DNA from: Myxococcales bacterium
GTDB taxonomy: Bacteria > Myxococcota_A > Polyangia > Polyangiales > Polyangiaceae
Assembly: GCA_012514535.1 (NCBI GenBank)
Contig: JAAZAA010000261.1
Coordinates: 1 to 64,000, forward strand
Direction: 5' to 3'
Length of the DNA stretch: 64,000 bases
In this document: piece after piece, positions 401-32,820 of the stretch
Position numbering within the stretch: position 1 is the stretch's first letter
How the letters are laid out: each line of letters begins with the position of its first letter
The notes under the pieces: model-generated
Databases searched by the model: none
What the model was told of the DNA's origin: nothing
Seen by the model: the letters and a program-made list of their open reading frames with translations, nothing else
Translations under genes and position numbers: made by a program

Positions 401-1867
401 ATGGTTTTCAATTCGTTCCACTACCTGGCGTTTTTCCCCGCGGTCGTCGTCGGCTACTTCCTGCTGCCGCAGCGCGCCCGCGTCGCCTGGCTCCTGCTCG
501 CCAGCCTGTACTTCGTGGGGGTGGCGAGCCCCGTCGCCGCGCTGCAGACGCTCGCGATCGTCGCCCTGGGTTGGCTGATGGGGCGCGCGATCGGCTCCGC
601 TGCGGACAAGGAGCGAAAGCACAAACTGCTCACCCTCGGCGTGCTCGCCCTCGTCGCCAACCTGGTCGTCTTCAAGTACGCGGGGTTCCTCAACGAGTCG
701 CTGCGCTCCTTCTTCGGATGGTTCGGGGGCGACTATCCGGTGCCCGTCCTCCAGCTACTGCTGCCTCTCGGCATCTCCTTCTACACGTTCCAGGTCATCG
801 CGTACCTGGTCGACGTGGCGCGCGGAGAGAAGCCCGAGCAGAGCTTCACCAGCTTCGGCCTCTTCGTCACCTTCTTCCCGAAGTTCGTCTCGGGGCCCAT
901 CGAGCGAGGGAAGAAGCTGCTCCCGCAGCTGCGGGTGAAGCACGAGCTCGACTACGCGAGGATCGTGGGCGGCGTCGAGCTGATGGCGTGGGGGTTCTTC
1001 AAGAAGATCGTCGTCGCCGATCGCCTCGGCCCCTTCGTGGCCCGCGTCTACGACGATCCGCGGAGCTTCGACGGCGTCGGCATGACGTTGGCCACCTGGC
1101 TGTTCGCGTTCCAGGTCTATTGCGATTTCAGCGGGTACACGGACATCGCCCGCGGGTCGGCCCGCGTGATGGGCTTCGAGCTGACGGAGAACTTCAACCG
1201 CCCCTACTTCGCGACCAGCGTGTCGGACTTCTGGAAGCGCTGGCACATCTCGCTCACGAGCTGGCTGACCGACTACATCTACACGCCCCTCACCCGCCAG
1301 CGGCGCTTCAAGATCAAATTCTATTATACGATCTTGATCAGCCTGTTCATCACGTTCGTGGTCAGCGGGTTCTGGCACGGCGCCGAGTGGACCTTCGTCG
1401 CCTGGGGCGCCTTGCACGGAGCGTATCTGGTCTGCTCGACCCTCACGCAGAAGTGGCGGGCGCGGGTCGCCAAGGCGCTGAAGCTCCAGCAGGTGCCGCG
1501 GCTGCACAAAGCCTGGAAGGTGGGGGTGACGTTCTCCCTCGTCTGCTTCGCGTACGTCTTCTTCCAGGCGCACAGCATGAGCGACGCCTATTACATCCTG
1601 ACGCACCTGTTCACGGGTTGGGGGAGCGCTGCGGCGGGGGTGAAGGCCGTCCTGGACGGGCAGTGGATCGAGCTCGGCTTCGGGCTCTGCGGGGCGGCGC
1701 TGGTCCTGCTCCTGGAGTCGGGGCAGACGACGGGGAACGTCCAGGAGCGGCTGGCGGCGCGGCCCGCCTGGGTGCGCTGGTGTTTCTATCAGGTGTGCGC
1801 CATCGGCATCCTGCTCTTCGGCGCGCTGTACGACACGAAGCAGAGCTTCATTTACTTCCAGTTCTGA
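401..1867 (+). CDS. MBOAT-family membrane O-acyltransferase (AlgI/DltB-like)
   Basis: A polytopic inner-membrane acyltransferase of about 488 residues that would move an acyl group across the membrane onto a cell-surface glycan. The MBOAT core is clear: FWKRWHISLT at 277-286, then GFWHGAEW with His326, and a second conserved His339 in the next segment. Many hydrophobic helices fill the rest. The start is the ATG at 401; the longer frame from 332 adds a non-hydrophobic leader that overlaps the likely promoter. The next gene starts two bases after the stop. The family includes AlgI (alginate O-acetylation) and DltB (D-alanylation). With SGNH, ACP and ligase genes following, the DltB-like role is favoured. 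The acyl group is unknown. Confidence 0.9.
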   Translation: MVFNSFHYLAFFPAVVVGYFLLPQRARVAWLLLASLYFVGVASPVAALQTLAIVALGWLMGRAIGSAADKERKHKLLTLGVLALVANLVVFKYAGFLNESLRSFFGWFGGDYPVPVLQLLLPLGISFYTFQVIAYLVDVARGEKPEQSFTSFGLFVTFFPKFVSGPIERGKKLLPQLRVKHELDYARIVGGVELMAWGFFKKIVVADRLGPFVARVYDDPRSFDGVGMTLATWLFAFQVYCDFSGYTDIARGSARVMGFELTENFNRPYFATSVSDFWKRWHISLTSWLTDYIYTPLTRQRRFKIKFYYTILISLFITFVVSGFWHGAEWTFVAWGALHGAYLVCSTLTQKWRARVAKALKLQQVPRLHKAWKVGVTFSLVCFAYVFFQAHSMSDAYYILTHLFTGWGSAAAGVKAVLDGQWIELGFGLCGAALVLLLESGQTTGNVQERLAARPAWVRWCFYQVCAIGILLFGALYDTKQSFIYFQF

Positions 1868-1868
1868 G

Positions 1869-3089
1869 ATGAGCCAGACCCCCTCAGCTGCTCGCTCGAC
1901 GACGAAGCCCACGACGGAGCCCGCGACGGAGCCGACGGCAGCGCCGCGCTCGGAGGCCACGTCGGCCGCCGCGCCCGGGCCGGGTCGGGGACGGGCGCCG
2001 TCGTCGTCCGCGGGGACGTCGGCGACGGCGTCATCGGCGACGAGCGTCGCGGCGCCGCGCGGGTGGAAGGCGGTCCTGCGCTTGATCACGCTCGGGGTGA
2101 TCTTCGTCGCGGTGCCGGCGTCGTTGGCGTTGGCCACGGTGTGGCTCGTCCCGGAGGGCAACGACTACGCCCTCGCGACGCGCCTGAAGCACGAGCGGCT
2201 GGCGGGAGCGGGAGCGACGCGGAGCAAGGTGGTCTTCGTGGGTGGCTCGAACCTGGCTTACGGCCAGGACAGCGCGGCGCTCGAAGACGCGACGGGCCGC
2301 TACGTCGTGAACATGGGCATGAACGGCTACTTCGGTGTGCGCTTCATGCTCGAGGAGGTGAAGCCCGACCTGCGCGCCGGCGATCTGGTCGTCATGGCCT
2401 TCGAGTACGACAGCTTCTACAAGTCCGCGGACGGCACCGCCTCGGATCTGTTGATGGCCGTGAAGGCGCGCCCGGAGAACCTCGCGTTCTTGACCTGGTC
2501 CCAGCGCCTCGACGTGCTCCAGGCGGTCCCCTACGTCGCCCAGCACAAGCTGGTGCGCCTGGTGCGCGAAGTGGGGCGCGGGGCGCGAGACTGGGTGCGC
2601 GGCTACTCCGCCGAGGATCCGACGGCGCTCTTCGATCGCATCGAGTCTCTGGCGGGCTTCGAGGCCCGTGGGGATCTCGTGAGCCACCGGGGCGTGGAGT
2701 GGGCGGACGCCCCGAACCCGGGCTACGACCTGAGCCACTTGGAGATCGACGCGGGGGTGATCGCGCGCATGCAGGAGTTCGCGCGGGTCATGCGGGAGGC
2801 GGGCGTCACGGTCTTCGTCTCCTACAGCCCCGTGGCCGAGAGCTTCTACGGCGAGCACCAAGGCGCGATCCGTCGCCTGCACGAAACCCTGCGGACGGCG
2901 TCCCTCGAGGTGCCGAGCCCCCCCGAGGCCTTCGTCATGCCGGACGCCTGGTTCTTCGACACGGTCTACCACCTGAAGGAGGAGCGCCGACACGAGCGGG
3001 CCCGTCGTCTCCTGGGGGACATCGAAGCCGCGCTGGGCGCCGCCACCGCGCCCGGCGTGGTGGCGGTCGACGCTCCGGAGGCGCCATGA
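1869..3089 (+). CDS. Membrane-anchored SGNH-hydrolase-like protein (DltD/AlgJ-type partner)
   Basis: A protein of 406 residues with a Ser/Thr/Ala/Pro-rich cytoplasmic leader of about 65 residues, one membrane segment at about 68-93, and a periplasmic domain. That domain opens with VVFVGGSN (residues 121-128), matching the first block of SGNH/GDSL hydrolases. It ends with FFDTVYHL, matching the Asp-His block. Such proteins partner MBOAT acyltransferases and either finish acyl transfer or edit it. Position right after the MBOAT gene (1-bp gap) supports that role. Which residue is catalytic cannot be proved from sequence alone. Confidence 0.75.
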   Translation: MSQTPSAARSTTKPTTEPATEPTAAPRSEATSAAAPGPGRGRAPSSSAGTSATASSATSVAAPRGWKAVLRLITLGVIFVAVPASLALATVWLVPEGNDYALATRLKHERLAGAGATRSKVVFVGGSNLAYGQDSAALEDATGRYVVNMGMNGYFGVRFMLEEVKPDLRAGDLVVMAFEYDSFYKSADGTASDLLMAVKARPENLAFLTWSQRLDVLQAVPYVAQHKLVRLVREVGRGARDWVRGYSAEDPTALFDRIESLAGFEARGDLVSHRGVEWADAPNPGYDLSHLEIDAGVIARMQEFARVMREAGVTVFVSYSPVAESFYGEHQGAIRRLHETLRTASLEVPSPPEAFVMPDAWFFDTVYHLKEERRHERARRLLGDIEAALGAATAPGVVAVDAPEAP

Positions 3090-3102
3090 CCCCCTGCACG
3101 CA

Positions 3103-3192
3103 AGGACCCCAAAGAGACCGATCGGTCGCTTTTGTCTCCCTAGGACCCCGAAGAGACCGATCGGTCGCTTTTGTCTCCCTAGGACCCCGAAG
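3103..3192. repeat. 39-bp tandem repeat, 2.3 copies, each with a 12-bp palindrome
   Basis: Units lie at 3103-3141 and 3142-3180 with one internal mismatch, and a partial third begins at 3181. Each full unit carries the perfect palindrome GACCGATCGGTC, so two palindromes lie exactly 39 bp apart, on the same helix face only if the helical repeat allows. They lie between the SGNH-like gene and the ACP gene. They may be operator sites, or simply a minisatellite. Confidence 0.7.
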
Positions 3193-3207
3193 CGGGCCGA
3201 GGGGGGT

Positions 3208-3253
3208 GACCGTGCCGTTTGGAGCGACCGTGCCGTTTGGAGCGACCCTGCCG
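3208..3253. repeat. 18-bp tandem repeat, about 2.5 copies
   Basis: The unit GACCGTGCCGTTTGGAGC occurs at 3208-3225 and 3226-3243, with a partial third at 3244-3253. It follows the 39-bp repeat in the same gap. The rest of the gap to 3348 shows only the Shine-Dalgarno GGAGG just before the ACP start. Confidence 0.7.
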
Positions 3254-3348
3254 CCGGGAGCGGTTCGGGCGCTCTGCCGGATTGGCTCGATCGAGGAAGC
3301 CGCCGATACTCGAGGGGCGTCTGCCCCCTTTGGCTGGAGGAACGACCG

Positions 3349-3594
3349 ATGGAAAAACAAGAAATCTTGAGTGCGATTCAGAAGCTGGTGGCGGACATCC
3401 TCGAGCAGAAGGGGCTCGACGTCGTGACCCTCGACGCGTCCACGGAGCTGCTCGGCGGCGAGCTCGGCATCGACTCCCTGGATCTCGCCACCCTGGTGCG
3501 CGAGCTCGAGGAGACCACCGGGCGGGATCCCTTCAGCGAGGGATTCATCGAGTTTCGTACCGCGGGTGAGCTCGCCGACCTGTACGTGCGATGA
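3349..3594 (+). CDS. Acyl carrier protein (DltC-like role)
   Basis: An 81-residue carrier protein of normal ACP length. The phosphopantetheine site is Ser43 in LGIDSLDL, followed by the usual helix III region. A Shine-Dalgarno GGAGG precedes the ATG at good spacing. The stop overlaps the start of the ligase gene by four bases (ATGA), so the two are probably translationally coupled and made together. It is likely a dedicated carrier loaded by that ligase rather than the housekeeping AcpP, because no fatty-acid synthesis genes flank it except one SDR reductase. Confidence 0.9.
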   Translation: MEKQEILSAIQKLVADILEQKGLDVVTLDASTELLGGELGIDSLDLATLVRELEETTGRDPFSEGFIEFRTAGELADLYVR

Positions 3595-4925
3595 CGTCGG
3601 CGCCTGGTTTGCCGCTCGAGGCGGGGGACGGGGCGGCGCTGGTGGCCCGTGGCGCCGCGGTCGTCTCGCGGGAGGAGCTGCGGCGTCGCTCCGACGAGCT
3701 CGCGGAGCGCCTCCGGCAGGAGGGCATCGGGCGCGTGATGGTCGTCAGCGACGATCCCGTCGACGTGCTCCGGGCGATCGACGCTTGCGCGCGGGCGGGG
3801 GCCGATCTCTGGGTCGCGCACACGAACCTCCCGGGCGCGATGGTGGAGGAGCTCTCGCGGGAGTTCCGCGTCCAGCTCCAGATCGGCGCCCAGGACGAAG
3901 CCCGCTCCGTCGCCGCGCCGACCGCCGACACCGAGCCGGCCACCGACGGCGACGGCGCGCCCCAGGCGCGCATCTTCATGATGACCTCGGGCACCACCGG
4001 GCGCCCCAAGGTGGCGACCCACACTCTCGGTTCCCTCCTCGCGAAGGTCCGCACCAGCGCGAGTGTGTCCGCCAACCGGGAGGGCCGCTGGTTGCTCACC
4101 TACCAGCCGACGGGTTTCGCGGGGGTGCAGGTCATGCTCACCGCGGCCCTGTCCCACGGGCTCATCGTCGTCCCGGAGGAGCGGAGCCCGCAGGGGTTCT
4201 TCGAGGCGGCGCGGCGGTGGGAGGTCGCCCAGATCAGCGGCACGCCGACGTTCTGGCGCTCCTTTCTCATGGCGACGCCGCCCGGGGCCCTCGAGCTGCG
4301 TCAGATCACCCTCGGCGGGGAGGCGGTGGACCAGGCGACCCTCGATCGCCTGAAGGAGCGCTTCCCGACGGCGCGGATCACGCACATCTACGCGTCGACG
4401 GAGGCGGGCGTCGTCTTCGCCGTGCACGACGGCCTCGAGGGTTTCCCGAAGAGCTGGCTGGAGCAGCCCGTGCAGGGGGTCGAGCTGCGGCTGCGGGACG
4501 ATCTGCTGCAGATCAAGACGCCGAACGCCATGCAGGGTTACCTGACGGAGGCGGCGCAGCCGCTGCTCGAGGGGGGCTGGGTGGCGACCGCGGATCGCTG
4601 TGAGATCGTCGGTGACCGCGTGCGGATCCTCGGGCGCCAGGACTCGACGATCAACGTGGGGGGCTCGAAGGTCTATCCCCTCGCCATCGAGGGGTTCCTG
4701 TTGGGATTGCCCGGCGTGGTCGAGGCGAAGGTGTACGCGGTCCCCAATCCCATCAGCGGGGCCCTCGTCGGCGCCGACGTCGTGCTCGCGCCGGGGTCGG
4801 AGCCGAGCGAGGCCAAGAAGGCGATCCTCGCCCGGTGTCGGGCGGAGCTGGCGACCTACCAGGTGCCGCGGGTGTTCCGCGTGGTCGACGCGATCCAGGT
4901 GGGGACCTCCGGCAAGAAAGGATGA
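3591..4925 (+). CDS. AMP-forming acyl/aminoacyl-ACP ligase, ANL superfamily (DltA-like role)
   Basis: A 444-residue adenylate-forming enzyme that would activate a carboxylic acid with ATP and load it on the carrier protein. Visible motifs: P-loop MTSGTTGRPK at 131-140, YASTE at 267-271, TADR at 333-336, GRQD at 348-351, and a C-terminal GTSGKKG carrying the conserved lysine. The region before the P-loop is short (about 130 residues), which makes the protein smaller than typical ANL enzymes. It overlaps the ACP gene and the SDR gene by four bases each. The substrate cannot be read from the sequence. Confidence 0.85.
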   Translation: MTSAPGLPLEAGDGAALVARGAAVVSREELRRRSDELAERLRQEGIGRVMVVSDDPVDVLRAIDACARAGADLWVAHTNLPGAMVEELSREFRVQLQIGAQDEARSVAAPTADTEPATDGDGAPQARIFMMTSGTTGRPKVATHTLGSLLAKVRTSASVSANREGRWLLTYQPTGFAGVQVMLTAALSHGLIVVPEERSPQGFFEAARRWEVAQISGTPTFWRSFLMATPPGALELRQITLGGEAVDQATLDRLKERFPTARITHIYASTEAGVVFAVHDGLEGFPKSWLEQPVQGVELRLRDDLLQIKTPNAMQGYLTEAAQPLLEGGWVATADRCEIVGDRVRILGRQDSTINVGGSKVYPLAIEGFLLGLPGVVEAKVYAVPNPISGALVGADVVLAPGSEPSEAKKAILARCRAELATYQVPRVFRVVDAIQVGTSGKKG

Positions 4926-5671
4926 CGATGCAACGCAAACACGTCTTGGTGACCGGAGGCAGCCGCGGGCTCGGCGCGCACCTCATCCGCGGGCTCTTGG
5001 CCGACGGCTACCGCGTGTCGACCTGCAGCCGCACGCGTACGCCGGTGATCGAGGAGCTGCTCGGGCAACCGGAGGTCAGTGATCGGTTCTTCTGGGGCCC
5101 CTGTCAGGTGGGCGTCGCCGAGGAGGTGGACACCTTCGTGCGCGACGCGGTCGCCTGGGCCGGCGCGGACGGCCTCTACGGGGTCATCAACAACGCTGGC
5201 ATCGCCCAGGCGGGCATCCTCGCGTCGTTCCCGAACGTGGAGAGCGAGAAGATCCTCCAGGTGAACCTGCTCGGGGCCATCCAGGTGGCGCGCGCCGCGT
5301 CCCAGTACCTGCTCAAGGCCAAGGACGGCGGGCGCATCATCAACATCAGCTCCATCATCGGGACGCGCGGCTACAACGGGCTGGCGGCCTACAGCGCGTC
5401 CAAGGCGGGCATGGATGGCCTCACGCGGGCGCTGGCGCGGGAGCTGGGGCGGCGCGGCATCACCGTGAACAGCGTCGCCCCCGGCTACATGAAGACCGAC
5501 ATGTCCTCGACGTTGAACGCGGGGCAGCTGGCGCAGATCGTCAACCGCACCCCGCTGCGTCGTCTGGCGTCGGAGGAGGACGTGCTCGGCCTCGTCCGCT
5601 TCCTCCTGAGCGACGCGGCGGCCATGATCACCGGGCAGACGATCCTGGTGGACGGTGGAGTGAGCTGTTGA
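4922..5671 (+). CDS. SDR-family 3-oxoacyl-ACP reductase-like enzyme (FabG-like)
   Basis: A 249-residue NAD(P)-dependent short-chain dehydrogenase. The nucleotide-binding motif TGGSRGLG is at 11-18, NNAG at 90-93, and the catalytic set is Ser144, Tyr157 and Lys161 (YSASK). The end GQTILVDGG is typical of FabG-like enzymes. The start at 4922 forms an ATGA overlap with the ligase gene; a longer frame from 4835 lies inside that gene. In this setting it may reduce a ligase-loaded 3-oxoacyl-ACP to a hydroxyacyl group before transfer. A sugar-modifying role is also possible. Confidence 0.85.
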   Translation: MTMQRKHVLVTGGSRGLGAHLIRGLLADGYRVSTCSRTRTPVIEELLGQPEVSDRFFWGPCQVGVAEEVDTFVRDAVAWAGADGLYGVINNAGIAQAGILASFPNVESEKILQVNLLGAIQVARAASQYLLKAKDGGRIINISSIIGTRGYNGLAAYSASKAGMDGLTRALARELGRRGITVNSVAPGYMKTDMSSTLNAGQLAQIVNRTPLRRLASEEDVLGLVRFLLSDAAAMITGQTILVDGGVSC

Positions 5672-5714: not shown

Positions 5715-7019
5715 ATGCGGGCCGTCGCGATCTACGCTGCGTATTCGATCGTCTGCCTCGGGCTGTTCCTGCTGCAGGCGCGCCGGGCGAGCCGGGACGG
5801 GCGCGCCGCGTCCGTGTGGCCTCTGGTCACGGCGGCGGTGGTGGCCCTCTCGGCGGGCATGTTCGTCGTGTCGGAGCCGCACCGGCCCTTCGAAGACTTC
5901 GTGGAGGCGTACTACGCGGGCGGCGTCAGCGTGCTCGAGGGGCGCACGCAGGTGGAGGAGCTCTTCGCGCGCGGGGTCCACGGCTTCGTCAACCTGCCCA
6001 TCCTGGCGTTCGTGTTCGCGCCGCTGGCGATCTTTCCCTCGGACGTCGCCAGCGTCCTCTTCACGGTGGCCGGCATCCTGGCGTGCATGGTGGCCTGGCG
6101 GCAGCTGGTGCTCCTCGCGGACCTCGACGAGGCGGGGGCGGTCACCCTGGCGTTCTTGTTCGCCCTGAACGGCCCCCTCATGAACAGCCTCCGGGAGGGG
6201 AACACCAGCCATTTCGCCCTGGCGGCGTTCACCGCAGCCCTGGTCGCCCTGCGCCAGGATCGGCAGATCCGGGCCGGCGCGCTGCTCGGGGCGGCCGCCT
6301 TGTTCAAGCTGCCGCTGCTCCTGTTCGGGGTCTATTTCGCCCTGCGGGGTCGGGTGCGCGCGGCCCTCGGTGGGGGGCTGGTGGTGGGGGGCGCGGTGGG
6401 CCTCTCGATCCTGGTCTTCGGGTGGGACGCCCACGTCGTTTGGCATGAGCGCTTCGTGGCGCACGCGGCGGATCACCCCGTCAGCGCGTTCAACGTGCAG
6501 TCCGTACCCGCCCTGGTGGCCCGCTGGGTCCGGGAGGGCGGGGGCCTGTACGACTGGGACGGCTACCCGGTGGGGGCGTCCCTGCGCCGGGTCGCGTCTC
6601 TGCCCACGATGGCGTTCTTTGCGAGCGCCGCGGTGGCGGCCGTCGTGTCGAAGGGGCCGCCGGCGCGGTGGTTCACGGTGTCCGAGCGCGAGCGGGAGGC
6701 CGAACAGCTGATGGTGCTCGTGCTCGCGTGCATCGCGAGCCCGCTCGCCTGGTCCCACTACTACGCCTGGATGCTGGCGCCGGCGGCGTTCGTCCTGGCG
6801 AAGTCGAAGGGGCTCGTGCGCAGCTCCCTCGACCGCGCCCTCGCCTGGGGAGCCGTCCTGGTGGTCTCGCTGCCGGTCGTGTGGCCTCCCGCGCCGCCGG
6901 GCGGGCTGCTCGAGCGGCTCTACGTGCTCCTGCTGTCGCACTATCTCTTCGGCGGTGCGCTGCTGTTCGCCCTGTTGTGCGCGTGGCGCTGGCGCCTCGG
7001 GCGCGCGCCGACCTCGTGA
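5715..7019 (+). CDS. Polytopic membrane protein, GT87/DUF2029-like glycosyltransferase
   Basis: A 434-residue integral membrane protein with about ten hydrophobic helices. PFEDFVEAYYAGG at about residues 58-70 fits the acidic first-loop signature of GT-C mannosyltransferases of the GT87/DUF2029 family. SPLAWSHYYAW near residue 340 fits their late conserved segment. Such enzymes use polyprenyl-phosphate sugars on the outer face of the membrane. It follows the SDR gene by 43 bp on the same strand. A polymerase (Wzy-like) function is an alternative, as no other polymerase was found. Confidence 0.65.
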   Translation: MRAVAIYAAYSIVCLGLFLLQARRASRDGRAASVWPLVTAAVVALSAGMFVVSEPHRPFEDFVEAYYAGGVSVLEGRTQVEELFARGVHGFVNLPILAFVFAPLAIFPSDVASVLFTVAGILACMVAWRQLVLLADLDEAGAVTLAFLFALNGPLMNSLREGNTSHFALAAFTAALVALRQDRQIRAGALLGAAALFKLPLLLFGVYFALRGRVRAALGGGLVVGGAVGLSILVFGWDAHVVWHERFVAHAADHPVSAFNVQSVPALVARWVREGGGLYDWDGYPVGASLRRVASLPTMAFFASAAVAAVVSKGPPARWFTVSEREREAEQLMVLVLACIASPLAWSHYYAWMLAPAAFVLAKSKGLVRSSLDRALAWGAVLVVSLPVVWPPAPPGGLLERLYVLLLSHYLFGGALLFALLCAWRWRLGRAPTS

Positions 7020-7095: not shown

Positions 7096-8169
7096 TCAGT
7101 CCTGGAGCTTCTCGGGGGTGAGCGAAGCGTGAGAGGCGCGGGGCGGGGGGCGGACGCTGTCGTAGCCACGTGCCCGAGCCACGCGCGCGCGACGGAGGCG
7201 CCACGCGCCGAGGGCGACCAGGCCCACGATCACCGCGAGCCAGAAGGTCACGAGCCGGACCAACACCGTGAGGGCGGCCGCGACGCTCAGAGCAGAGCTC
7301 GAACCCGCGAGCACCACGAGCATGCCGGCCATGGACGCCTCCGTCGCCCCGAGCCCGCCGGGGACGAGGGCCAACGCACCGGCGAGGAGGGGCGCGCAGT
7401 AGGCGACGATCCCATCGACCACGGAGATGGCGAACTCCGGGAACGCCTGGGCGAGCAGCCAGACGGTGACGCTCTGGATGCCCCAGGCGACGAGGGAGAG
7501 CCCGAGCGCCGGCAGGTAAGCGCTCGGCACCACCAGAGCACCGAGGGCCTCGAAGGAGCTCTGGAGCTTCGCGCGGCGCGGCGCCACGAGGCGCGCGTTC
7601 AGGACGCGCGCGGGAATGTAGTCGAACACGCGCGGCAGGAAGCCGACCAGCAGGGCGAGGACGACGCCCCCGACGACGGTGACGATGCCGGGCGCCAGCG
7701 CCCCCGGCACGAACATGAGCGCGACCCCACCGAGCAGCACGACCGCGACGAGATCCGCGAGGCGCTCGAACATGACGATGGGCGCGCTCTGCGCCACCGG
7801 CACCTCGAAGGAGTCTTTCAGGAGTAACGACTTGATGACCTCGCCCGCCTTGGCAGGGGTGATGGTCATCGCCAGGCCCACGAAGCTCACCAAGACGCCA
7901 TCGGTGAAGGGCACGTTCGAGCGGACCCTGCGCAGGAGCGCGTGCCAGCGGACCGCTCGGAGGAAGAAGCTCGCCAGCGACAGCAGGCAGGCAAAGACGA
8001 TGGCCCGACCGGAGACGCGGCTCATCTCCCGGACCGTGGCGTCCGCATCCGCGAGGAGGAAGAGGGCCAGGTAAGCCGCGATGGCGACCACGACGACGGG
8101 GACGAGCTTGCGGCCGAGGTGGCGGGGGAAAAGGTCCTTGTCGTCGGCCAGCGTGGATGGCGTCTCCAT
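7096..8169 (-). CDS. Lysylphosphatidylglycerol-synthase-type transmembrane protein (flippase-like)
   Basis: About 357 residues with eight or so membrane helices, matching the TM domain family shared by MprF and YbhN (PF03706). Family signals seen are FFLRAVRWHALLRR, SFVGLAMTITPAKAGEVIKS and PGGLGATEASM. There is no soluble synthase domain, so it is a stand-alone transmembrane unit. Relatives are proposed to flip lipid-linked molecules or assist glycosyl transfer. The start at 8169 is preferred over 8202 because GGGAG stands a few bases before it. It is convergent with the GT87-like gene. The substrate is unknown. Confidence 0.75.
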   Translation of the reverse strand: METPSTLADDKDLFPRHLGRKLVPVVVVAIAAYLALFLLADADATVREMSRVSGRAIVFACLLSLASFFLRAVRWHALLRRVRSNVPFTDGVLVSFVGLAMTITPAKAGEVIKSLLLKDSFEVPVAQSAPIVMFERLADLVAVVLLGGVALMFVPGALAPGIVTVVGGVVLALLVGFLPRVFDYIPARVLNARLVAPRRAKLQSSFEALGALVVPSAYLPALGLSLVAWGIQSVTVWLLAQAFPEFAISVVDGIVAYCAPLLAGALALVPGGLGATEASMAGMLVVLAGSSSALSVAAALTVLVRLVTFWLAVIVGLVALGAWRLRRARVARARGYDSVRPPPRASHASLTPEKLQD

Positions 8170-8201
8170 CGAATCTCCCGAGGCGGTCCAGCCTCTCCGC
8201 A

Positions 8202-8215
8202 TTGACGATCGTCAA
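8202..8215. promoter_or_regulatory. 14-bp palindrome TTGACGATCGTCAA upstream of the minus-strand flippase-like gene
   Basis: A perfect palindrome 33 bp before the start codon at 8169. A near copy (TTGACGCTCGTCAA) lies at 49087-49100, also ahead of a minus-strand gene. Read on the minus strand it supplies a TTGACG -35 box, so a regulator bound here could block RNA polymerase. The rest of the gap 8170-8470 shows no gene. Confidence 0.45.
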
Positions 8216-8470
8216 GACAGCGTCTCGTGCACTCAGGAACCGGTCAAGCGTTATTGGGCCGTCTCCCCAGGGAAACGGCGCTGACGACAGGAGGTCCTCT
8301 TCAAGGCGATCGGACACCGGGGGCGGTCGTTGAGGGGTGTTTTCCGGAACGACCCATGGCAGGACTCGAATCCCGGTTTCGAGCACCGCACCGAGAGGGC
8401 CGACCTCCAGCCCGACGCTCCGAGCGCAGAACAGCATCCCCGATACCTCAGCGCGGGCGCGCCCATCGAG

Positions 8471-8504
8471 CGGGCGTCCTGGTCCGTTAAGATACCGGCG
8501 ATGG
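8471..8504 (+). promoter_or_regulatory. Second copy of the 34-bp block: likely leaderless promoter of the GT4 gene
   Basis: Identical to 102-135. TAAGAT (8488-8493) is followed by exactly seven bases and then ATG at 8501, so the start codon itself may be the first transcribed base. There is no Shine-Dalgarno sequence ahead of this ATG, as expected for a leaderless message. Confidence 0.5.
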
Positions 8505-9676
8505 CGCAGACACCCGCAGCGGAGCGGATCCCACGAGCAGATACCGAAATGACGGCGCATCACTACTGCTTCTTCGCCGAACGTCAGGTGGGCATCGGCA
8601 GCGCGGCGCAGGCCATCGAGCCCTATGTCCGCGCGGCTGGTCACACGTGGTGCGATGTCACCTATGTGGAGGAGGGCGGGCTGATCGAGCGGTTGCCAGG
8701 GCCGAAGCGCGGCAAAGGCACGCTGCGCGGCTTCGTGCAGGTGGCGCGGACGTTGCGGCGCCGGCGCTACGACGGGCTCTTCTTTTTGACCCACAACCCG
8801 GCGGTGTTTCACCCCTGGGCGCTCATGCGTTTCCCGACGTTGCTGTGGACCGACGTGACTCCTGCGCAGCTGGACGGACAGGCGGAGCAATACGGACACA
8901 CGGTCGACCGGGCCGAGGTCGTGCGTCGGCTGAAGCGAGCTGCCGTTCGGAGCACGTTCCACCGGGCTCGGCTCGTGGTGGGCTGGTCGCGCTGGGCGCG
9001 TCGCTCCTTCGTGGACGACTATGGCGTCGCCGAGGCGCGGACCCGGGTGGTGCCCCCGGGGATCGATCTGGCGCGTTGGCGGCTCCCGGAGCGGGGACCG
9101 AGCGAGGGGTTGCCTCGGCTGCTGTTCGTCGGGGGCGACTTCGAGCGCAAGGGCGGGCGGCTCCTGCTCGAGGTGTTTCGGGAGCATTTCCGCGGTCGCG
9201 CGGAGCTGGATTTGGTGACCAGAGATCCCGTCGCCGAGGAGCCCGGCGTGCGCGTTCACAGGGGACTCACCGCCGGCAGTGAGGCGCTGCTCGAGCTCTA
9301 CCGGGCGGCCAGCGCGTTCGTCTTGCCGACCCAGGGGGACTGTTTCTCGATCGCGTCCCTCGAGGCGATGGCCATGGGGTTGCCCGTGGTGGTGTCGGAC
9401 GTCGGCGGCATCTCGGACATCGTCGAGGTGGAGCGCAGCGGGTTCCTCATGCCTCCTCGGGACGGCCGGGCCCTCCGCGAAGCGCTGGAGCGCCTCGCCG
9501 GGGACGGCAACCTGCGTCAGCAGCTGGGGCACCGGGGGCGCGCCCTGGTCGAGGAGAAGTTCGATGCCAGCAGGTCCGCGGACACCCTGATGTCATTGCT
9601 GCGACAAGCCGTCGACTCGGCGCCGGAGGGTGGCGCGGAGACGGCTCGGAGCGCCGTGCTTCGTGCTAGCAGGTGA
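8501..9676 (+). CDS. GT-B glycosyltransferase, family 4
   Basis: About 391 residues. The C-terminal Rossmann half is typical of GT4 retaining enzymes: LLFVGGDFERKGG, then FVLPTQGDCFSIASLEAMAMGLPVV with the conserved Glu, then GGISDIVE and GFLMPP. The N-terminal acceptor half is less conserved. It would add one sugar to a lipid-linked repeat unit on the cytoplasmic face. The start at 8501 matches the leaderless promoter block; an internal ATG at 8549 (MTAHHYCFF) is an alternative that trims 16 unconserved residues. The flippase gene starts three bases after its stop. Confidence 0.85.
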   Translation: MAQTPAAERIPRADTEMTAHHYCFFAERQVGIGSAAQAIEPYVRAAGHTWCDVTYVEEGGLIERLPGPKRGKGTLRGFVQVARTLRRRRYDGLFFLTHNPAVFHPWALMRFPTLLWTDVTPAQLDGQAEQYGHTVDRAEVVRRLKRAAVRSTFHRARLVVGWSRWARRSFVDDYGVAEARTRVVPPGIDLARWRLPERGPSEGLPRLLFVGGDFERKGGRLLLEVFREHFRGRAELDLVTRDPVAEEPGVRVHRGLTAGSEALLELYRAASAFVLPTQGDCFSIASLEAMAMGLPVVVSDVGGISDIVEVERSGFLMPPRDGRALREALERLAGDGNLRQQLGHRGRALVEEKFDASRSADTLMSLLRQAVDSAPEGGAETARSAVLRASR

Positions 9677-9679
9677 GCG

Positions 9680-11209
9680 ATGGAGTCCGTCGAGCTCGAG
9701 CCCGCGCCCGTGGCGTCCCCCGCGCCCGTGGCGCCCCCTGCGTCCGACCGCGCCGCGACCACGCGCCTGGTGGCGAAGAACACGCTCTGGCTCGCCGGAG
9801 GGCAGATCATCGGCATGCCCCTCGGCATCCTCACCAGCGCGCTGTTGGCGCGTTGGCTCGGCGCCGAGGACTACGGCTTCTTCTTTCTCGTCACCACCAT
9901 GGCGGGCTTCGCCGCCACCTTCAGCGAGTTCGGGCAAGGGGGCGCCGCGCAGCGCGCCGTGGCGCGGGATCGGAGCGCGGCGGGGACTCTCCTCACGAGC
10001 GCGCTCGCGCTGCGACTGGGGAGCTTCGTCGTCGCTCACATCGTGCTCGCCGTCGCCTACTGGGTGCTCGACTATCCGTCCCACGTGGGCATCGCCCTGG
10101 CCATCGTCACGGGGCAGACCTTGCTGTTCCAGTTCGGCCAGACGGCGGCGTTGGCCGCGCGCGCCTATGAACGCTCCGAGTTCGTCGCGCGCAACACGCT
10201 GATCCTTCAGTTTGCCACGTTGGTCGCGATCGTGCCCGCGCTGCTGCTCGGCGGGGGGCTCGTGGGCGTGATGGTGGCGCAGCTCGTGGCGGCGGCGGTG
10301 GCCAGCTGGATCGACTGGCGCCTGCTGGCGCGTCTGGGCATCCAGCTGCGGCGCGCCCAGGTCGCCACGATGCGCCTCCTCGCCCGGGAGGGGGTGGGCT
10401 TCCTCGTGCTCGGCGGCGTCGTGGTGCTCCAGTGGAACGTCAACGCCGTGATGCTCTCGAAGCTCGCCGGTGCGGAGGTGATGGGTTGGTACGCGGCTGC
10501 CCAGCGCTTGGTGGGGTTCCTCATCTTCCCCTGCAGCGCGGTGATCGGATCGCTCTACCCGACCTTGTGCCGGCTCGTCGCGGAGGACCCCGAGGAGGCC
10601 GCCGCCACGACCCGATCGGCGCTGGGCGTCATGTCCTGGGTGGTGTTGCCCGTGGCGCTGGGCTGCGCCCTGTTCCCGGATATCGGCATCCAGATCTTCA
10701 GCCGGGAGAGCTTCGAGCCCGCGGAGGACAACCTCCGGATCTCCGCGCTGGTGATCTTCTTCCTGTACTTCGTGATGGTGCTGGCCACCTACGTCAACGC
10801 GCTCGGCTTGCAGCGGGTGTGGGCCTTGCTCCAGCTCGGCAGCGTGGCGATCAGCTCGGCCCTGAACGTCCTGCTCATCCCGATGTTCCAGGACTCCATG
10901 GGCAACGGCGGGCTCGGGGTCGTCACCGCGACGGTCGTCTCGGAGGGGTTCCTCGTGTTCGCCGCGCTCCGCCTGGCCCCGACCCGGCTGCTCAACGCGT
11001 CGTTCTTCCGCTCCTTCGGCCTGGCGCTGCTCGCGGCGGCGTGCATGGCGATCGTGGGTCTGGTGTTGCGCCCGCTCGTCACCTCCTGGGTGGCCGCACC
11101 CATCGCCGTCGTCGTCTACGTGGTGTGCCTGCGGGTCACGGGCGTGTTGAACCCGGCGACCATCGCCATGGTGCGCGACATGGTGCGGCGGCGGAAGGCG
11201 CGGGCCTGA
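9680..11209 (+). CDS. Wzx-type polysaccharide flippase (MOP superfamily)
   Basis: A 509-residue polytopic protein with about 12-14 membrane helices and the repeated two-half organisation of the MOP exporters. The first helix pair carries KNTLWLAGGQIIGMPLG and ALLARWLGAEDYG, a standard Wzx/RfbX opening. It would flip undecaprenyl-linked repeat units to the periplasm. The first 35 residues are an Ala/Pro-rich leader; ATG at 9680 is three bases after the GT4 stop, which suggests co-translation. It fits the Wzx role of this Wzx/Wzy-type locus. Confidence 0.85.
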   Translation: MESVELEPAPVASPAPVAPPASDRAATTRLVAKNTLWLAGGQIIGMPLGILTSALLARWLGAEDYGFFFLVTTMAGFAATFSEFGQGGAAQRAVARDRSAAGTLLTSALALRLGSFVVAHIVLAVAYWVLDYPSHVGIALAIVTGQTLLFQFGQTAALAARAYERSEFVARNTLILQFATLVAIVPALLLGGGLVGVMVAQLVAAAVASWIDWRLLARLGIQLRRAQVATMRLLAREGVGFLVLGGVVVLQWNVNAVMLSKLAGAEVMGWYAAAQRLVGFLIFPCSAVIGSLYPTLCRLVAEDPEEAAATTRSALGVMSWVVLPVALGCALFPDIGIQIFSRESFEPAEDNLRISALVIFFLYFVMVLATYVNALGLQRVWALLQLGSVAISSALNVLLIPMFQDSMGNGGLGVVTATVVSEGFLVFAALRLAPTRLLNASFFRSFGLALLAAACMAIVGLVLRPLVTSWVAAPIAVVVYVVCLRVTGVLNPATIAMVRDMVRRRKARA

Positions 11210-13448: not shown

Positions 13449-14933
13449 ATGACGGACGACGATCTGGATCTGGACGAGCAGGACGGGGGCGAAGGCTCCC
13501 CGATACACCCGCTCGAAATCGCGGCGTTCGTGCTCTCGGCCACGCGTCGCCGGTGGTGGTTGGCGGCCCTGGTGTTCCTGAGCGTCGCGGCGCTGGGGAT
13601 CACCGCGGGCGTCCTGCTGCCGAAGAAGTACGAGACCCTCTCCCGCGTGCTCGTCGGCGAGGGGGCGTTCATGGTGCACGTGAACCCCGAGCGGAAGGTG
13701 CCGCGGGTCGACGAGTTCCGTGGCCTGCAGGAGCGGATCTTCCGTCAGGAGAACCTGCGCGAGATCGTGCGGGAGGCCGAGCTCGAGCGGCTCTGGACGG
13801 AGCGCCGCCCCACGCTGCTCCGCTTCAAGGATTGGCTCCTCCGCAACGGGTTGGATCGCCAGGACGAGCGGACCCGCATCCGCACCCTGATGGCGACCCT
13901 CGGTCAGCGCCTGGTCGTGGAGACCGACCACTCCACGACGATCACCTTCAAGGCGATGTGGTCCGATCCGGAGACCGCCGCGCGGATCGTGGAGGTCACG
14001 CGGGACCGCTTTTTCCAGGAGCGGCTCGACGGTGAGCTGGACGTGCTGCGGGAGGCCCTGAAGATCCAGGAAGAGCAGGCGAAGGCGGCCGCCCGCGACG
14101 TCGACCGCTTCCTCAAGCGGGTGGAGAAGGCGAGCTGGTACGAACCGCCCACTCCAGAGCCGACCCCGTCCGGTGCCGATGCGAAGCCGCGCGTGGTGGA
14201 GGTCGTGAGCCCGGTGCGGACCGAGGTCAAGCTCGAGCCGGATCCGCTCCTCGTGGGCAAACTCGAGAAGGTGCGGCAGCGGATCCGCGAGACGAAGGAG
14301 CCCTGGCAGCGGCGCCTGACGGAGCTCAAGCTGCAGCTGACGGACCTGAGCGCGACCTACGCCGAGAAGCACCCCCTGATCATCCATCAGAAGGCGCGCA
14401 TCGAAGAGGCGTCCGTCCCGCCCCCGGAGCTCGACGCGCTCAAGGCGGAGGAGAGCGAGCTGCTGGCGAAGATCGAGGCCTTCTCCAAGGCTCCTACCGA
14501 CGAAGGCGGGGCCAAGCGGACGGTGCGCGTCAACGCGCCGGAGGTCGCCGCTCCCACCAAGACGGGCCCGGTGCGCATCGAGCAGTCCGCAGCGATTTCG
14601 GCGGAGCAGGCCAAGCTGATCACCGCGATCAACAAGTACAACGAGCTCAGCGAGCGCGTCGCCAGCACGCACCTGGAGATCGCGACGGCGGAGACGGCCT
14701 TCAAGCACCGGTACCTCGTCACGGTCGACGTGGAGGTCCCCGTCGCCCCCCTCAAGCCCAAGCTGCCGCTGTTCATCGGGCTGGGCAGCGTGGTGTTCGG
14801 CTTCCTGTTGAGCCTCGCGATCGGGCCGCTCGTCGAGCTCTTGCGGGGGCGGCTGCTGGCGCCGTGGCAGGTCAAGACCTTGGGGCTGCCGCTCCTGGGC
14901 GACGTGCCCATGGAGCGCAGCGGCGGCCGCTGA
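13449..14933 (+). CDS. Wzz-type polysaccharide co-polymerase (PCP), no kinase domain
   Basis: A 494-residue inner-membrane protein: acidic N-terminus, first membrane helix at about 36-58, a long periplasmic part with extended coiled-coil stretches (about 200-430) broken by a Pro-rich insert near 235-260, and a second helix near 445-470 after a PLKPKLPLFIG motif typical of Wzz/GNVR proteins. It would control chain length and bridge to the OPX protein. The tail after TM2 is only about 25 residues, so the tyrosine-kinase domain often fused to such proteins is absent; compare the CpsD-like domain at 17825-19861. Confidence 0.85.
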   Translation: MTDDDLDLDEQDGGEGSPIHPLEIAAFVLSATRRRWWLAALVFLSVAALGITAGVLLPKKYETLSRVLVGEGAFMVHVNPERKVPRVDEFRGLQERIFRQENLREIVREAELERLWTERRPTLLRFKDWLLRNGLDRQDERTRIRTLMATLGQRLVVETDHSTTITFKAMWSDPETAARIVEVTRDRFFQERLDGELDVLREALKIQEEQAKAAARDVDRFLKRVEKASWYEPPTPEPTPSGADAKPRVVEVVSPVRTEVKLEPDPLLVGKLEKVRQRIRETKEPWQRRLTELKLQLTDLSATYAEKHPLIIHQKARIEEASVPPPELDALKAEESELLAKIEAFSKAPTDEGGAKRTVRVNAPEVAAPTKTGPVRIEQSAAISAEQAKLITAINKYNELSERVASTHLEIATAETAFKHRYLVTVDVEVPVAPLKPKLPLFIGLGSVVFGFLLSLAIGPLVELLRGRLLAPWQVKTLGLPLLGDVPMERSGGR

Positions 14934-15020
14934 TGGTGCCGGGCGCTGTGGTGCCGGGCGCTGACGGTGGCGGGCGCTGTGGTGCCGGGCGCTGTGGTGC
15001 CGGGCGTTGACGGTGGCGGC
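14931..15020. repeat. 15/16-bp tandem repeats, about six units
   Basis: Units of the form TGNNGGTGCCGGGCGC follow each other from the PCP stop codon, which is inside the first unit, to about 15020. The rest of the gap to 15277 is GC-rich and shows nothing recognisable. Confidence 0.65.
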
Positions 15021-15277
15021 GAGCCGAGGGGGGCTGGTCGTCGCGGGCCGCGGCGACCGGCGCCGAGGATCGACGCGGGGCATCGGCGGCGCCTGCGGTG
15101 CTGGGGGGGAACCCAGGGACGCGCGGTGGGTAGCTGTGACCTGCCTCCCTCCGAGGCGGACGCGCGCGTTCGATGTCCGCAACCAAGGTGCAGCCGAGCC
15201 CGCCGCGGGCAACGCCCACCACCGGCGGCGCTGCGGGGCGCCGCTACGTCCTCGGTGACGCCACCGCGGTGACCGCG

Positions 15278-16471
15278 TCAGGCGCTGCGGTCCGTGCGCT
15301 CCCACTCCCCGTGGGCGCCGTGACGCGCGAAGCTCGCGTACAGAGGGAGCTTCCAGAGGACGTAGCGCGGGATGCGCAGGACCTCCGCGGGCGGGAGCAG
15401 CTGGCGACCGTCGACGAGCCAGGCCAGGAGGACTCCCGCGCCGAGCACCGCGCAGCCTCCCGCCGCCACGGCGAAGGGGAGGACCGGGCCACCGACGAGC
15501 GCGACTCCGGCCGTGCCCAGCGCGGCGCCGGACTGGAGGAGCACGAGGAGCGCGAGGGGCGGGACGGCGGAGTCGAGGCCCTGGGCGATGAGCCCCAGGT
15601 CGGCGCGCAGCAGGCCTTGCACGAGCAGGCGCGGCGAGGTGCCGAAGAGGATCGCCAGACCCCCGTGCTCCCAGCGGCGGCGCTGCTTGAAGCTCGCGGG
15701 GGCGTTCTGGGCGAGCTCGCCGACGACGAGGGTGTCTTCGTCGAGCAGCGGCGGCGCGCCGCGCAGGGCGAGCTCGTGCCCCAACAGCCGATCCTCGGCG
15801 AGGAAGCCATGGGTGGCGGGCGCGTCGCGATACACGGGCCACGGGAAGGCCATCCCCGTGCCCGTGAGCTCGCAAGGCAACCCGAGACGCCGCAGCCCGC
15901 GAGGTCGAACGAGGTTGCGCACCAGGAACGCGAAGGCGGAGATCCCCGACAGGTCGTTGTTCCCCGCGGGCCTCTCGAGAAGGTAGACCGCCTGGGTCGG
16001 GCGCCCGCTCGCCAGGGCCTCGAGGGCGAGGCCGCGCAGGCTGCCCCGGGCGACGCGGCAGTCCGCGTCCATCACGACGACCACGTTGGGCGGATCCGTC
16101 GTCAGGTGCTCGGCGCCGTAGCTCAGCGCGTAGCCCTTGCCCCGTCGCTCGGCGTCGCGGCGCTCCAACACCTCCGCGCCCGCTTCGCGGGCGAGCGTGG
16201 CCGTGTCGTCCGAGCAATTGTCCGCGATCACGACGAGGCGATCCTCGGGGCCGAGCTCTGCGAGGAGGTGGCGCACGGTGGCCTCGATACCGGCGGCTTC
16301 GTCGTGGGCGGGGACCAGCACCGCCATGCGGAAGTCTCGGGTGGGCAGCGCGCGGGGCGCCTTCCTGCGGGGCAGGTACGAAGCGAGCACTTCGGTCGTG
16401 AAGATCGCGGAGGGCGCCGCCACGAGGGCAGCGCCCAGCGAAAGTCCGATCGAGAGCAGAGGCGCGGGCAT
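15278..16471 (-). CDS. Membrane-bound family 2 glycosyltransferase
   Basis: About 397 residues: an N-terminal membrane helix, a GT-A domain and two or three helices near the C-terminus. Motifs in order: VLVPAHDEAAGIEATV, the nucleotide Asp in ADNCSDDTA, the metal-binding MDADC, the ED of LAEDRLLG, and QRRRW in place of QxxRW. That set is typical of processive or membrane GT2 enzymes. The start is ambiguous: 16471 has GAGG close by and gives a short periplasmic end, 16483 adds four residues, and 16606 is unlikely. It is divergent from the GT26 gene and belongs to the polysaccharide locus. Confidence 0.8.
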   Translation of the reverse strand: MPAPLLSIGLSLGAALVAAPSAIFTTEVLASYLPRRKAPRALPTRDFRMAVLVPAHDEAAGIEATVRHLLAELGPEDRLVVIADNCSDDTATLAREAGAEVLERRDAERRGKGYALSYGAEHLTTDPPNVVVVMDADCRVARGSLRGLALEALASGRPTQAVYLLERPAGNNDLSGISAFAFLVRNLVRPRGLRRLGLPCELTGTGMAFPWPVYRDAPATHGFLAEDRLLGHELALRGAPPLLDEDTLVVGELAQNAPASFKQRRRWEHGGLAILFGTSPRLLVQGLLRADLGLIAQGLDSAVPPLALLVLLQSGAALGTAGVALVGGPVLPFAVAAGGCAVLGAGVLLAWLVDGRQLLPPAEVLRIPRYVLWKLPLYASFARHGAHGEWERTDRSA

Positions 16472-16670
16472 GGCCCTCAACATATCAAATGGCGGTGTTC
16501 CGCGGCGCAGGGAACGACGCGGGCGATGCTCCGAAAACCTGTTTCCCTTGGTGGAACGGCCGGGCCCCTCCCGCCCGAGCGGTGGCGGCGAGCCGGTCGA
16601 GCTCAAGAGCCCGGAGATTCTGCGCGGGAGGGCTTGTCACGCTCCGCGACTTCGGGTGAGGTGGGCTGCC

Positions 16671-17750
16671 ATGACCCTCGAGACACCGCGGGTACGCATC
16701 GGACAGGTGCCCCTCGACCCCGTCACGCTGACGGAGGCGGTGGATCGCATCGTGGAGCTCGCCCGCTCGGGGCGCGGCGGGACCGTCTTCACGCCGAACG
16801 TCGATCACATCGTCGTGGCCGACGAGAACCCAGCGTTCCAGGACGCTTATGCGAATGTGAGCCTCTCGTTGGTGGACGGGACGCCCGTGTTCTGGGCGGC
16901 GCGCCTCCTGCGCTTCGGGATCCCCGAGAAGGTGTCCGGTTCGGATTTGTTCGAGCCGCTCGTCGAGCGCGCAGCTCGCGAGGGCTTGCCGGTGTTCCTG
17001 TTGGGTGGGCTCCCGGGGGTCGCCGAGATGGCGCGGGACAACCTCGTGGCGCGCCACCCAGGGCTGCGCGTCGTGGGGTTGTGTGCGCCGCGCATCGACG
17101 CCGCGGGACACGCGGAGGACGAGGCCGCCCTGGTCGAGACGATCCGCGCCACGGAGCCCGCCATCGTGTTCGTGGCCTGCGGCGCGCCGAAGTCGGAGCT
17201 CTTCTCCGACCGCCAGCGGGCCGCGCTGCGCCCCGCGGTCCTCGTCTGCGTGGGCGCGGCCATCGACTTCGCCGCGGGCACCGCGCAGCGCGCGCCGCGC
17301 TGGGTCTCCCGGGTGGGCCTCGAGTGGGCCTATCGACTCGCGCGGGAGCCGCGCCGTCTGGCGCGCCGCTACCTGCTGCGGGATCCGAAGTTCCTCTGGA
17401 TCTTCGCGCGGCAGCTCACGGACGCCCTGGTCCCGGCGCGTGGCCGCCTCGCGCCGCCCGCCGAAGGACAGGTGGCGTTCGCCGAGGAGCCTCCGCGCTC
17501 GGAGGTCCGCGGTCCCGCGCTGGTCGCCGAAGAGGCCCCCGCGGAGAGCGGGCTCACCGCGCGGGGCGACGCAGGGAGCGCGGCTCAGTCGACCAGCGCT
17601 CTGGTCTCTGGTGAGCCGTCCCACTCTGGCGTGGTCCAGCCGAGCGCCGGGACGACGCCGCCTGCGCACGGGACGTCCGCGCCGTCCCTGCAACCCGCGC
17701 AATCGACGACCGCCCGCGCGCAGGTCACCGACGAGAGCCAGGTGCCCTGA
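16671..17750 (+). CDS. WecG/TagA/CpsF-family glycosyltransferase (GT26) with disordered tail
   Basis: About 359 residues, of which the first 245 are the GT26 domain: TPNVDHIVVADENPAFQDAY, SLVDGTPVFWAARLL, GLPVFLLGG, CGAPKSELF, VGAAIDFAAGTAQRAPRW and GLEWAYRLAREPRRLARRY are all family segments. Enzymes of this family add a hexose or ManNAc-type sugar to an undecaprenyl-linked acceptor. GAGGTGG lies at good spacing from the ATG at 16671. The last 110 or so residues are low complexity (Ala, Ser, Pro, Glu), an unusual extension for the family. A palindrome follows the gene. Confidence 0.85.
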   Translation: MTLETPRVRIGQVPLDPVTLTEAVDRIVELARSGRGGTVFTPNVDHIVVADENPAFQDAYANVSLSLVDGTPVFWAARLLRFGIPEKVSGSDLFEPLVERAAREGLPVFLLGGLPGVAEMARDNLVARHPGLRVVGLCAPRIDAAGHAEDEAALVETIRATEPAIVFVACGAPKSELFSDRQRAALRPAVLVCVGAAIDFAAGTAQRAPRWVSRVGLEWAYRLAREPRRLARRYLLRDPKFLWIFARQLTDALVPARGRLAPPAEGQVAFAEEPPRSEVRGPALVAEEAPAESGLTARGDAGSAAQSTSALVSGEPSHSGVVQPSAGTTPPAHGTSAPSLQPAQSTTARAQVTDESQVP

Positions 17751-17763
17751 CGACGAGCGCTCC

Positions 17764-17775
17764 CTCGTCGACGAG
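17764..17775. terminator. Palindrome between convergent genes, possible bidirectional terminator
   Basis: CTCGTCGACGAG is a perfect 12-bp palindrome. It is flanked by further GACGAG/CTCGTC pairs, between the GT26 stop (17750) and the stop of the minus-strand gene at 17825. No T tract is present. Confidence 0.4.
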
Positions 17776-17824
17776 CAGTCGACGAGCGCCGCCCGCCGCT
17801 GGGTGCGGTGCGAGCGCTCGCGGT

Positions 17825-19861: not shown

Positions 19862-20195
19862 GGCTGGCTCGTGGGTTGTAGGTCGGAGGCGTGAGTGACC
19901 GATGAACTATGCCAGGCGGCCCCGAGCGCCAGGATTTCCGTCCCGCCGAGGGAGGAGGAGGACGTCCGAGCCAGTCTCAGGTTCATCTACCATGTAGGTT
20001 TTCTGGGGCCACATTACCACATGTCAATTCCCCCGAACGCGGGGGTACGGGGGGAGAAATCGCCCGTGGAGCGCTTTTTTTTGCCGAGAATTCGCGTGTC
20101 CATTCGGCAACTGCATTAAGCTAGAGGAGTGCAGGCCGCTCGTGAACGAGGGGTCGAGATTCGAGGTAACGGACGCGAAGACCACGGAGAACGAA
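19862..20195. other. Intergenic region with a GC hairpin and a T8 run
   Basis: This 334-bp gap is locally richer in A/T than its surroundings. It contains a perfect hairpin, CCCCCG (20030-20035), loop AACG, CGGGGG (20040-20045), and a run of eight T at about 20075-20082 after AGCGCT. No RNA gene or ORF with codon bias was recognised. It must contain the promoter of the minus-strand CpsD-like gene and possibly one for the small membrane protein. Confidence 0.45.
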
Positions 20196-32806: not shown

Positions 32807-32820
32807 CTTGGGAGACGAAG

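Follow-up and report, generated by a model that had tools for sequence, protein, structure and literature searches.

A five-gene MBOAT cassette from a myxobacterium as a candidate carrier-protein-fed O-acylation system for exported glycans

Introduction

Can an AlgI/PatA-type MBOAT acyltransferase in a Gram-negative bacterium be fed by its own acyl carrier protein (ACP) instead of by acyl-coenzyme A (acyl-CoA)? The question is raised by five adjacent genes in a stretch of 64,000 nucleotides from a Myxococcales bacterium (the whole stretch is called here the window), which starts at the first base of contig JAAZAA010000261.1 in an assembly of 5.77 Mb and 442 contigs (GCA_012514535.1). All on the forward strand, they encode an AlgI/PatA-type MBOAT acyltransferase (401-1867), a putative DltD-like SGNH-type protein with an N-terminal membrane anchor (1869-3089), an ACP of 81 amino acids with a GIDSLD site (3349-3594), an AMP-forming acyl ligase of 444 amino acids, the presumed loader of the ACP (3591-4925), and a FabG-like short-chain dehydrogenase/reductase (SDR; 4922-5671). 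The prevailing view is that MBOAT/SGNH pathways besides the Dlt system have no carrier protein and use acyl-CoA (PMC12148441), and in literature searches of open-licence papers we found no paper on an ACP-fed MBOAT outside Dlt. We consider it probable that the five genes act together to O-acylate an exported glycan across the membrane, with a carrier protein as the source of the acyl group; if this is true, the cassette is a clear Gram-negative exception to the prevailing view.

An initial annotation of this DNA had described five adjacent Dlt-like genes, the last three of them coupled by ATGA overlaps and the whole placed ahead of polysaccharide assembly genes. All five genes are present, with support from Pfam or from structure models (for the SGNH protein by likeness of structure and conserved motifs), and the 4-base ATGA overlaps lie between ACP and ligase at 3591-3594 and between ligase and SDR at 4922-4925. 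The placement also holds, with glycosyltransferases of families GT87 and GT4, a Wzx-like flippase and a Poly_export/SLBB protein downstream.

The five-gene operon is found in two phyla

A profile scan of genome contigs with the ligase alignment yielded 80 loci, and the full MBOAT-SGNH-ACP-ligase-SDR set occurred among them only with the ligases closest to that of the window. A gene-neighbourhood survey of relatives had been proposed; counting the window, the set is present in 11 loci of two phyla. The 10 further loci comprise one in another Myxococcales metagenome-assembled genome (MAG; L075) and nine in Alphaproteobacteria, namely Devosia (L076), Hyphomonadaceae or related Alphaproteobacteria (L077, L078, L079, L081, L082) and three more (L259, L260, L261), often as a single tight operon; the nearest named relative for the window cassette is a Myxococcales MAG. 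In L260, for example, the successive gaps from MBOAT to SDR are 2, -4, -4 and 6 bases, so that the SGNH gene overlaps the ACP gene. The ligases of the cassette loci, including that of the window, form one group in the tree (support 93/85), nested in a wider family of ligases that belong to an ACP-ligase-SDR triad. GT87 is present in most cassette loci, and in the Hyphomonas-type loci it is adjoined by a UbiA-HAD protein and GtrA.

For a blind test, 105 Hyphomonas-family genomes were searched with a profile built from the cassette MBOATs and not from the ligase. Besides three members of the clade already known, it returned three new ones (706-894 bits, the best non-member reaching 470 bits), and all three new loci hold the SGNH, ACP, ligase and SDR genes in the same operon. 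At the other MBOAT loci that were read, no neighbouring ACP or ligase gene was seen; for one part of these loci, most of them with about 1.5 kb of flank, the negative is local. Given its presence in 11 loci of two phyla, the five-gene cassette is no chance array. The pairwise correlations of identity between the five proteins are weak to moderate (0.08-0.79) and add little; the SDR is generally the most conserved of the five. At L078 (7196-9737), from a Terricaulis MAG, the MBOAT and SGNH genes are split by frame changes, probably sequencing errors, and the ACP, ligase and SDR genes are intact.

The cassette MBOATs share a changed docking segment

The MBOAT of the window (488 amino acids from the ATG at 401) matches PF03062 with 96.5 bits and has its catalytic histidines in RWH and WHG, H281 and H325 being invariant in the MBOAT alignment. 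The cassette MBOATs form one clade with 100/100 support and a long stem, also when the columns of the docking segment are left out, and DltB stands on a very long separate branch. By docking segment we mean the stretch between the two histidine blocks. It has 43 residues and no GG in 10/10 intact cassette MBOATs, TR or VR taking the place of GG, which makes it four residues longer than the standard form of 39 residues with GG, present in 63 of the 65 non-cassette MBOATs and in PatA of Neisseria gonorrhoeae. The PatA family has been shown to use acetyl-CoA. In DltB the segment has 46 residues, also lacks GG, and forms a horizontal helix that docks DltC (Met302, Val305, Ile306, Met309 and Lys312, with Arg317 just beyond; PMC11035591). 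The change in the cassette clade is consistent with a switch of donor from CoA to carrier protein, although it falls short of proof. For the study of how MBOATs choose their donor, it offers a natural comparison, in that ACP-linked and CoA-type enzymes differ in one segment. Outside the cassette clade two MBOATs, at L169 and L253, likewise lack GG and have longer segments (45 and 57 residues); their donors may differ too.

The C-terminus of all intact cassette MBOATs reads FIYFQF or FIYFRF, which fits the acyl-shuttle motif FXYXXF. This motif carries the acyl-tyrosine in PatA and is located in Dlt on a separate protein, DltX (PMC12148441). Since the motif is fused to the C-terminus of the MBOAT, the cassette would need no DltX. 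The MBOAT is not a DltB equivalog, with 182 bits against a cut-off of 375 for TIGR04091. The tree prefers an origin of the carrier-fed MBOAT independent of Dlt, which we leave unclaimed given an approximately unbiased test that did not reject a joint group of DltB and the cassettes (p 0.39, or 0.31 once the columns of the docking segment were removed).

The ligase lacks the residues that select D-alanine

The ligase matches the AMP-binding domain with 111 bits and its C-terminal domain with 44 bits, and it retains its adenylation motifs, with the C-terminal catalytic lysine among them. In DltA (L. plantarum numbering) Asp198 holds the amino group of D-alanine and Cys270 selects D-alanine (PMC9338922). 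The equivalents of both are absent from 23/23 ligases in our alignment, that of the window and 22 relatives: Asp198 has been deleted or exchanged (F-AG), and Gly stands in place of Cys270. Judged from the aligned residues, the substrate of the ligase is therefore probably a carboxylic acid that bears no alpha-amino group. Structural modelling of the ligase, also proposed in the initial annotation, gave a confident model (mean predicted local distance difference test score, pLDDT, 90.6), in which feruloyl-CoA synthetase, MenE and PchD are nearest and DltA ranks 42nd; no substrate can be read from it, because it most resembles acyl and aryl ligases of a general kind, and for this reason we rejected the pocket as a guide to the substrate.

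These residues bear directly on whether the cassette is a true Dlt system in Gram-negative bacteria, adding D-alanine or another amino acid. The four functional parts are the same, the modelled fold of the SGNH protein is DltD-like, and D-alanylation has been reported for a Gram-negative locus, dra of Bordetella pertussis, which we know through a review that cites the original work (PMC4448142, citing Taneja 2013). Against this stand the missing amino anchor and D-alanine-selecting residue in every ligase aligned, the MBOAT score far below the DltB cut-off together with the fused shuttle motif, an ACP that fits no DltC model, and the added reductase. We reject the transfer of D-alanine on the ligase residues, and regard a true Dlt system as the least probable of the explanations considered, barely credible on present evidence.

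The ACP, ligase and reductase form a module of sugar-decorating loci

The ACP matches the PP-binding family (PF00550) with 37 bits, with the phosphopantetheine serine in GIDSLD, and no DltC model was matched in the scan with NCBIfam-type models. The SDR matches adh_short_C2 with 170 bits and TIGR01830 with 197.7 bits against a cut-off of 297.75, which is below the level of a FabG equivalog. In 59 of the 80 loci the ACP, ligase and SDR genes follow each other in that order on one strand and are strictly adjacent, the median gap being -4. Where it occurs outside the cassette clade, this triad has among its neighbours GNAT and hexapeptide transferases, an AAC(3)-like acyltransferase, polysaccharide and PIG-L deacetylases, NeuB, a cytidylyltransferase of CMP-sugar type and sugar epimerases. 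The initial annotation had named the finding of ligase and ACP in unrelated loci as a result that would speak against it; the triad does occur without an MBOAT, and where it does it stands with other sugar-acylation genes. The initial idea of a Dlt-like transfer of something other than D-alanine in a polysaccharide locus is supported by the ligase residues and by these partners, among them sugar acyltransferases. Similarly, flagellar glycosylation islands of Aeromonas contain genes for an ACP, a 3-oxoacyl-ACP reductase and an AMP synthetase (PMC7874193). Most economically, the triad can be read as a source of acyl-ACP for the decoration of sugars, with an exchangeable transferase; in the cassette clade this transferase would be the MBOAT-SGNH pair, which would shift the reaction to the periplasm. 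Myxococcota also have a second and remoter family of ligases (30-37% identity; L059-L074); at these loci the SDR gene lies upstream of that of the ligase, and no MBOAT is close by.

The frequent use of FabG, ACP and ligase proteins in lipid and secondary-metabolite pathways could mean that the triad belongs to such a pathway, lipid or polyketide-like, and lies beside glycan genes by chance. The scan of neighbouring proteins brought up no ketosynthase, however, and glycan genes (transferases, deacetylases, epimerases, NeuB, Wzx/Wzy, GT87) make up most of the conserved neighbours identified in the survey, so we hold this explanation to be highly improbable.

The partners of the triad also suggest that the cassette may be two systems side by side, an acetyl-CoA-dependent MBOAT/SGNH O-acetyltransferase and a triad that feeds a cytoplasmic acyltransferase acting on a nucleotide sugar. 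Bacterial MBOAT/SGNH pairs studied so far, Dlt excepted, are said to use acyl-CoA (PMC12148441), the triad is elsewhere paired with GNAT, hexapeptide and AAC(3)-like enzymes, and at L131/L057 an MBOAT-SGNH pair, Wzy and Wzx are followed 5 kb away by a triad with its own GNAT-like neighbour. But the two halves are kept as one operon in the 11 loci, including a 4-base overlap of SGNH and ACP genes; a scan of the nearby window genes (5.7 to 13 kb) revealed no GNAT or hexapeptide enzyme; and the docking segment is altered in this way in cassette MBOATs alone, the MBOAT of L131 having the standard GG. We consider this explanation unlikely. The L057/L131 locus (G208) itself was not counted as a cassette, given the standard GG segment of its MBOAT and the 5 kb between this MBOAT and the triad.

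A last variant keeps the same machine and changes the role of the SDR, which would yield a free hydroxy acid or act on the sugar, so that any small acid could be transferred. The substrate of the SDR cannot be read from its sequence, FabG-like SDRs are diverse and the score is below the FabG equivalog cut-off; on the other side, the SDR gene keeps its place next to those of the ligase and the ACP, often with 4-base overlaps, and the high conservation of the SDR among the five proteins fits a carrier-bound step. We find this variant very unlikely, if marginally less so than a secondary-metabolite origin.

The SGNH-like protein

No match was found for the second gene product in Pfam, NCBIfam or PDB sequences. 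Its structure model has a mean pLDDT of 74, and the six best Foldseek matches in the PDB are all DltD (probability 0.99-1.00, template modelling (TM) score 0.39-0.46). Seven members of the family share a GGSN block with the serine, NMGMNG, and the aspartate and histidine of D-T-V-[YF]-H; GGSN, D298 and H302 are invariant in the family alignment. The model and the motifs suggest that the protein is likely, though not proven, to be a DltD-like SGNH protein.

A proposed mechanism and its relation to known systems

Taken together, the parts suggest a pathway in four steps. First, the ligase would adenylate a small carboxylic acid that has no alpha-amino group, and would load it on the phosphopantetheine of the ACP. 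The FabG-like SDR would then reduce the ACP-bound 3-oxoacyl to a 3-hydroxyacyl group, with 3-hydroxybutyryl as our best guess. The acyl-ACP would dock at the cytoplasmic side of the MBOAT, on the remodelled donor-docking segment, and the MBOAT would carry the acyl group across the membrane and hand it to the tyrosine in the FIYFQF at its own C-terminus. Finally, the serine of the membrane-anchored DltD-like SGNH protein would take the acyl group and esterify with it a sugar of a lipid-linked glycan in the periplasm, a plausible candidate being a glycan that the neighbouring GT87 decorates. The parts and motifs, the conserved operon, the clade-specific docking segment and the absence of the D-alanine determinants are shown at the level of sequence; the acyl-ACP donor, the acyl group, the direction of the SDR and the periplasmic glycan acceptor are inferred.

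Because the SDR is FabG-like, the transferred group is probably a non-amino acyl of the 3-hydroxyacyl kind. Esters of 3-hydroxybutanoyl occur on the exopolysaccharide of R. leguminosarum (PMC3233446), but nothing ties the enzymes there to the cassette. A periplasmic sugar is a plausible acceptor, because GT87, UbiA-HAD and GtrA beside the Hyphomonas-type cassettes are parts of the pentofuranose systems that work in the periplasm with a UbiA-type synthase, a flippase and a GT-C enzyme (PMC11127046). These three-component systems would be neighbours and possible makers of the acceptor, outside the acyl machinery; the window cassette is accompanied by GT87 and a UPF0104 protein, and no UbiA-HAD was seen next to it. 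The cassette predicts a non-acetyl ester on the exported glycans of Hyphomonas, Devosia and a myxobacterium; among its carriers are two species that can be cultured, Hyphomonas polymorpha and Devosia faecipullorum.

With the Gram-positive Dlt system (DltA, DltB, DltC, DltD and DltX) the cassette shares an MBOAT, a likely DltD-like SGNH protein, a carrier protein and its own AMP-forming ligase, and the carrier-protein donor proposed here is alike. Unlike Dlt, it has an extra FabG-like reductase, and it lies in a glycan and not a teichoic acid locus. The initial idea of kinship to Dlt thus stands as a functional likeness and falls as membership, with no DltB equivalog, no DltA and no DltX, and the profile searches divide in the same way, with matches to PF03062, PP-binding and AMP-binding, a missed DltB cut-off and no DltC match. 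For the dra locus of B. pertussis a Dlt-type modification in a Gram-negative is reported as well; the group given for it, in the citing review, is D-alanine. PatA/PatB, AlgI/AlgJ and WssH/WssI share with the cassette the type of MBOAT, the C-terminal FXYXXF, the catalytic histidine and the neighbouring SGNH protein, but they use acyl-CoA with no dedicated ligase or carrier (PMC12148441), whereas the cassette has the ACP, ligase and SDR and its MBOATs do not keep the GG-containing segment of 39 residues. The Aeromonas islands have the same three donor-making functions in a sugar-modification locus, but in another gene order and with no MBOAT/SGNH pair described, and there, likewise, the acyl group is not shown (PMC7874193). 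The cassette is best described as working like Dlt without being a member of that family, that is, as an AlgI/PatA-type MBOAT-SGNH pair with a dedicated supply of acyl-ACP.

The carrier- and ligase-fed transfer that had first been suggested therefore gains from the operon in two phyla, the blind test (3/3) and the docking-segment change. Several observations weigh against it. The MBOATs of L169 and L253, without GG and with no known carrier, indicate that the change is not confined to carrier users; the cassette loci share ancestry, so that counts of co-occurrence overstate the independent evidence; the triad is common without an MBOAT and so is not dedicated to MBOATs in general; FabG-like SDRs are broad in their substrates; and the quality of the SGNH model is no more than moderate (pLDDT 74, TM 0.39-0.46). 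Moreover, in the window the SGNH and ACP genes are 259 bases apart with a 39-base tandem repeat in between, and the argument as a whole is built on sequences and models. A wider proposal is that the cassette is a second, separately evolved carrier-fed system, in which an AlgI/PatA-type MBOAT went from acyl-CoA to acyl-ACP by remodelling of one docking segment and was joined by a mobile acyl-ACP-making module, placing a hydroxyacyl ester on exported glycans of Gram-negatives; this we offer tentatively, our confidence in it falling a little below even.

Genomic setting and other features of the window

We read the setting of the cassette as a polysaccharide locus on account of the genes downstream. 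These are a GT87 (GT-C) glycosyltransferase, the conserved companion of the cassette (5715-7019, forward strand; PF09594), an LPG_synthase_TM/UPF0104 membrane protein, a candidate lipid-sugar translocase (7096-8202, reverse strand; PF03706), a GT4 glycosyltransferase identified by Pfam, with an uncertain start at 8330 or later (8330-9676, forward), and a Wzx-like polysaccharide flippase (9680-11209, forward; PF01943), as well as the Poly_export/SLBB protein found in the family scan. At L055, a Myxococcales relative, GT87 occupies the interval between the SGNH and ACP genes; the GT87 of the window is 35% identical to this copy, and its UPF0104 protein 42% identical to the L055 neighbour. In the alphaproteobacterial relatives the SGNH and ACP genes abut or overlap.

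The repeat in the SGNH-ACP gap of the window (3103-3188, forward strand) has a unit of 39 bases with the palindrome GACCGATCGGTC, and three further copies occur in the genome at up to 3 mismatches. The RNA fold of the gap is unremarkable (z -1.1), and a scan for promoters and terminators gave no signal above chance. A defence function was rejected, PADLOC giving no match.

Several long open reading frames with good coding character and no Pfam family lie at 13449-21562 and 31574-36058 of the window. Certain PLSDB 'plasmid' records, such as NZ_CP119142.1, are clearly chromosomes (in this case 2.17 Mb of Neisseria gonorrhoeae), which is relevant when mobility is judged from that database. A 20-base sequence, GGTCCGTTAAGATACCGGCG, has two copies in the window, at 112-131 and 8481-8500, and 24 in the genome at up to 2 mismatches, against 0 in the reversed control, several of them near contig starts; it is an interspersed repeat.

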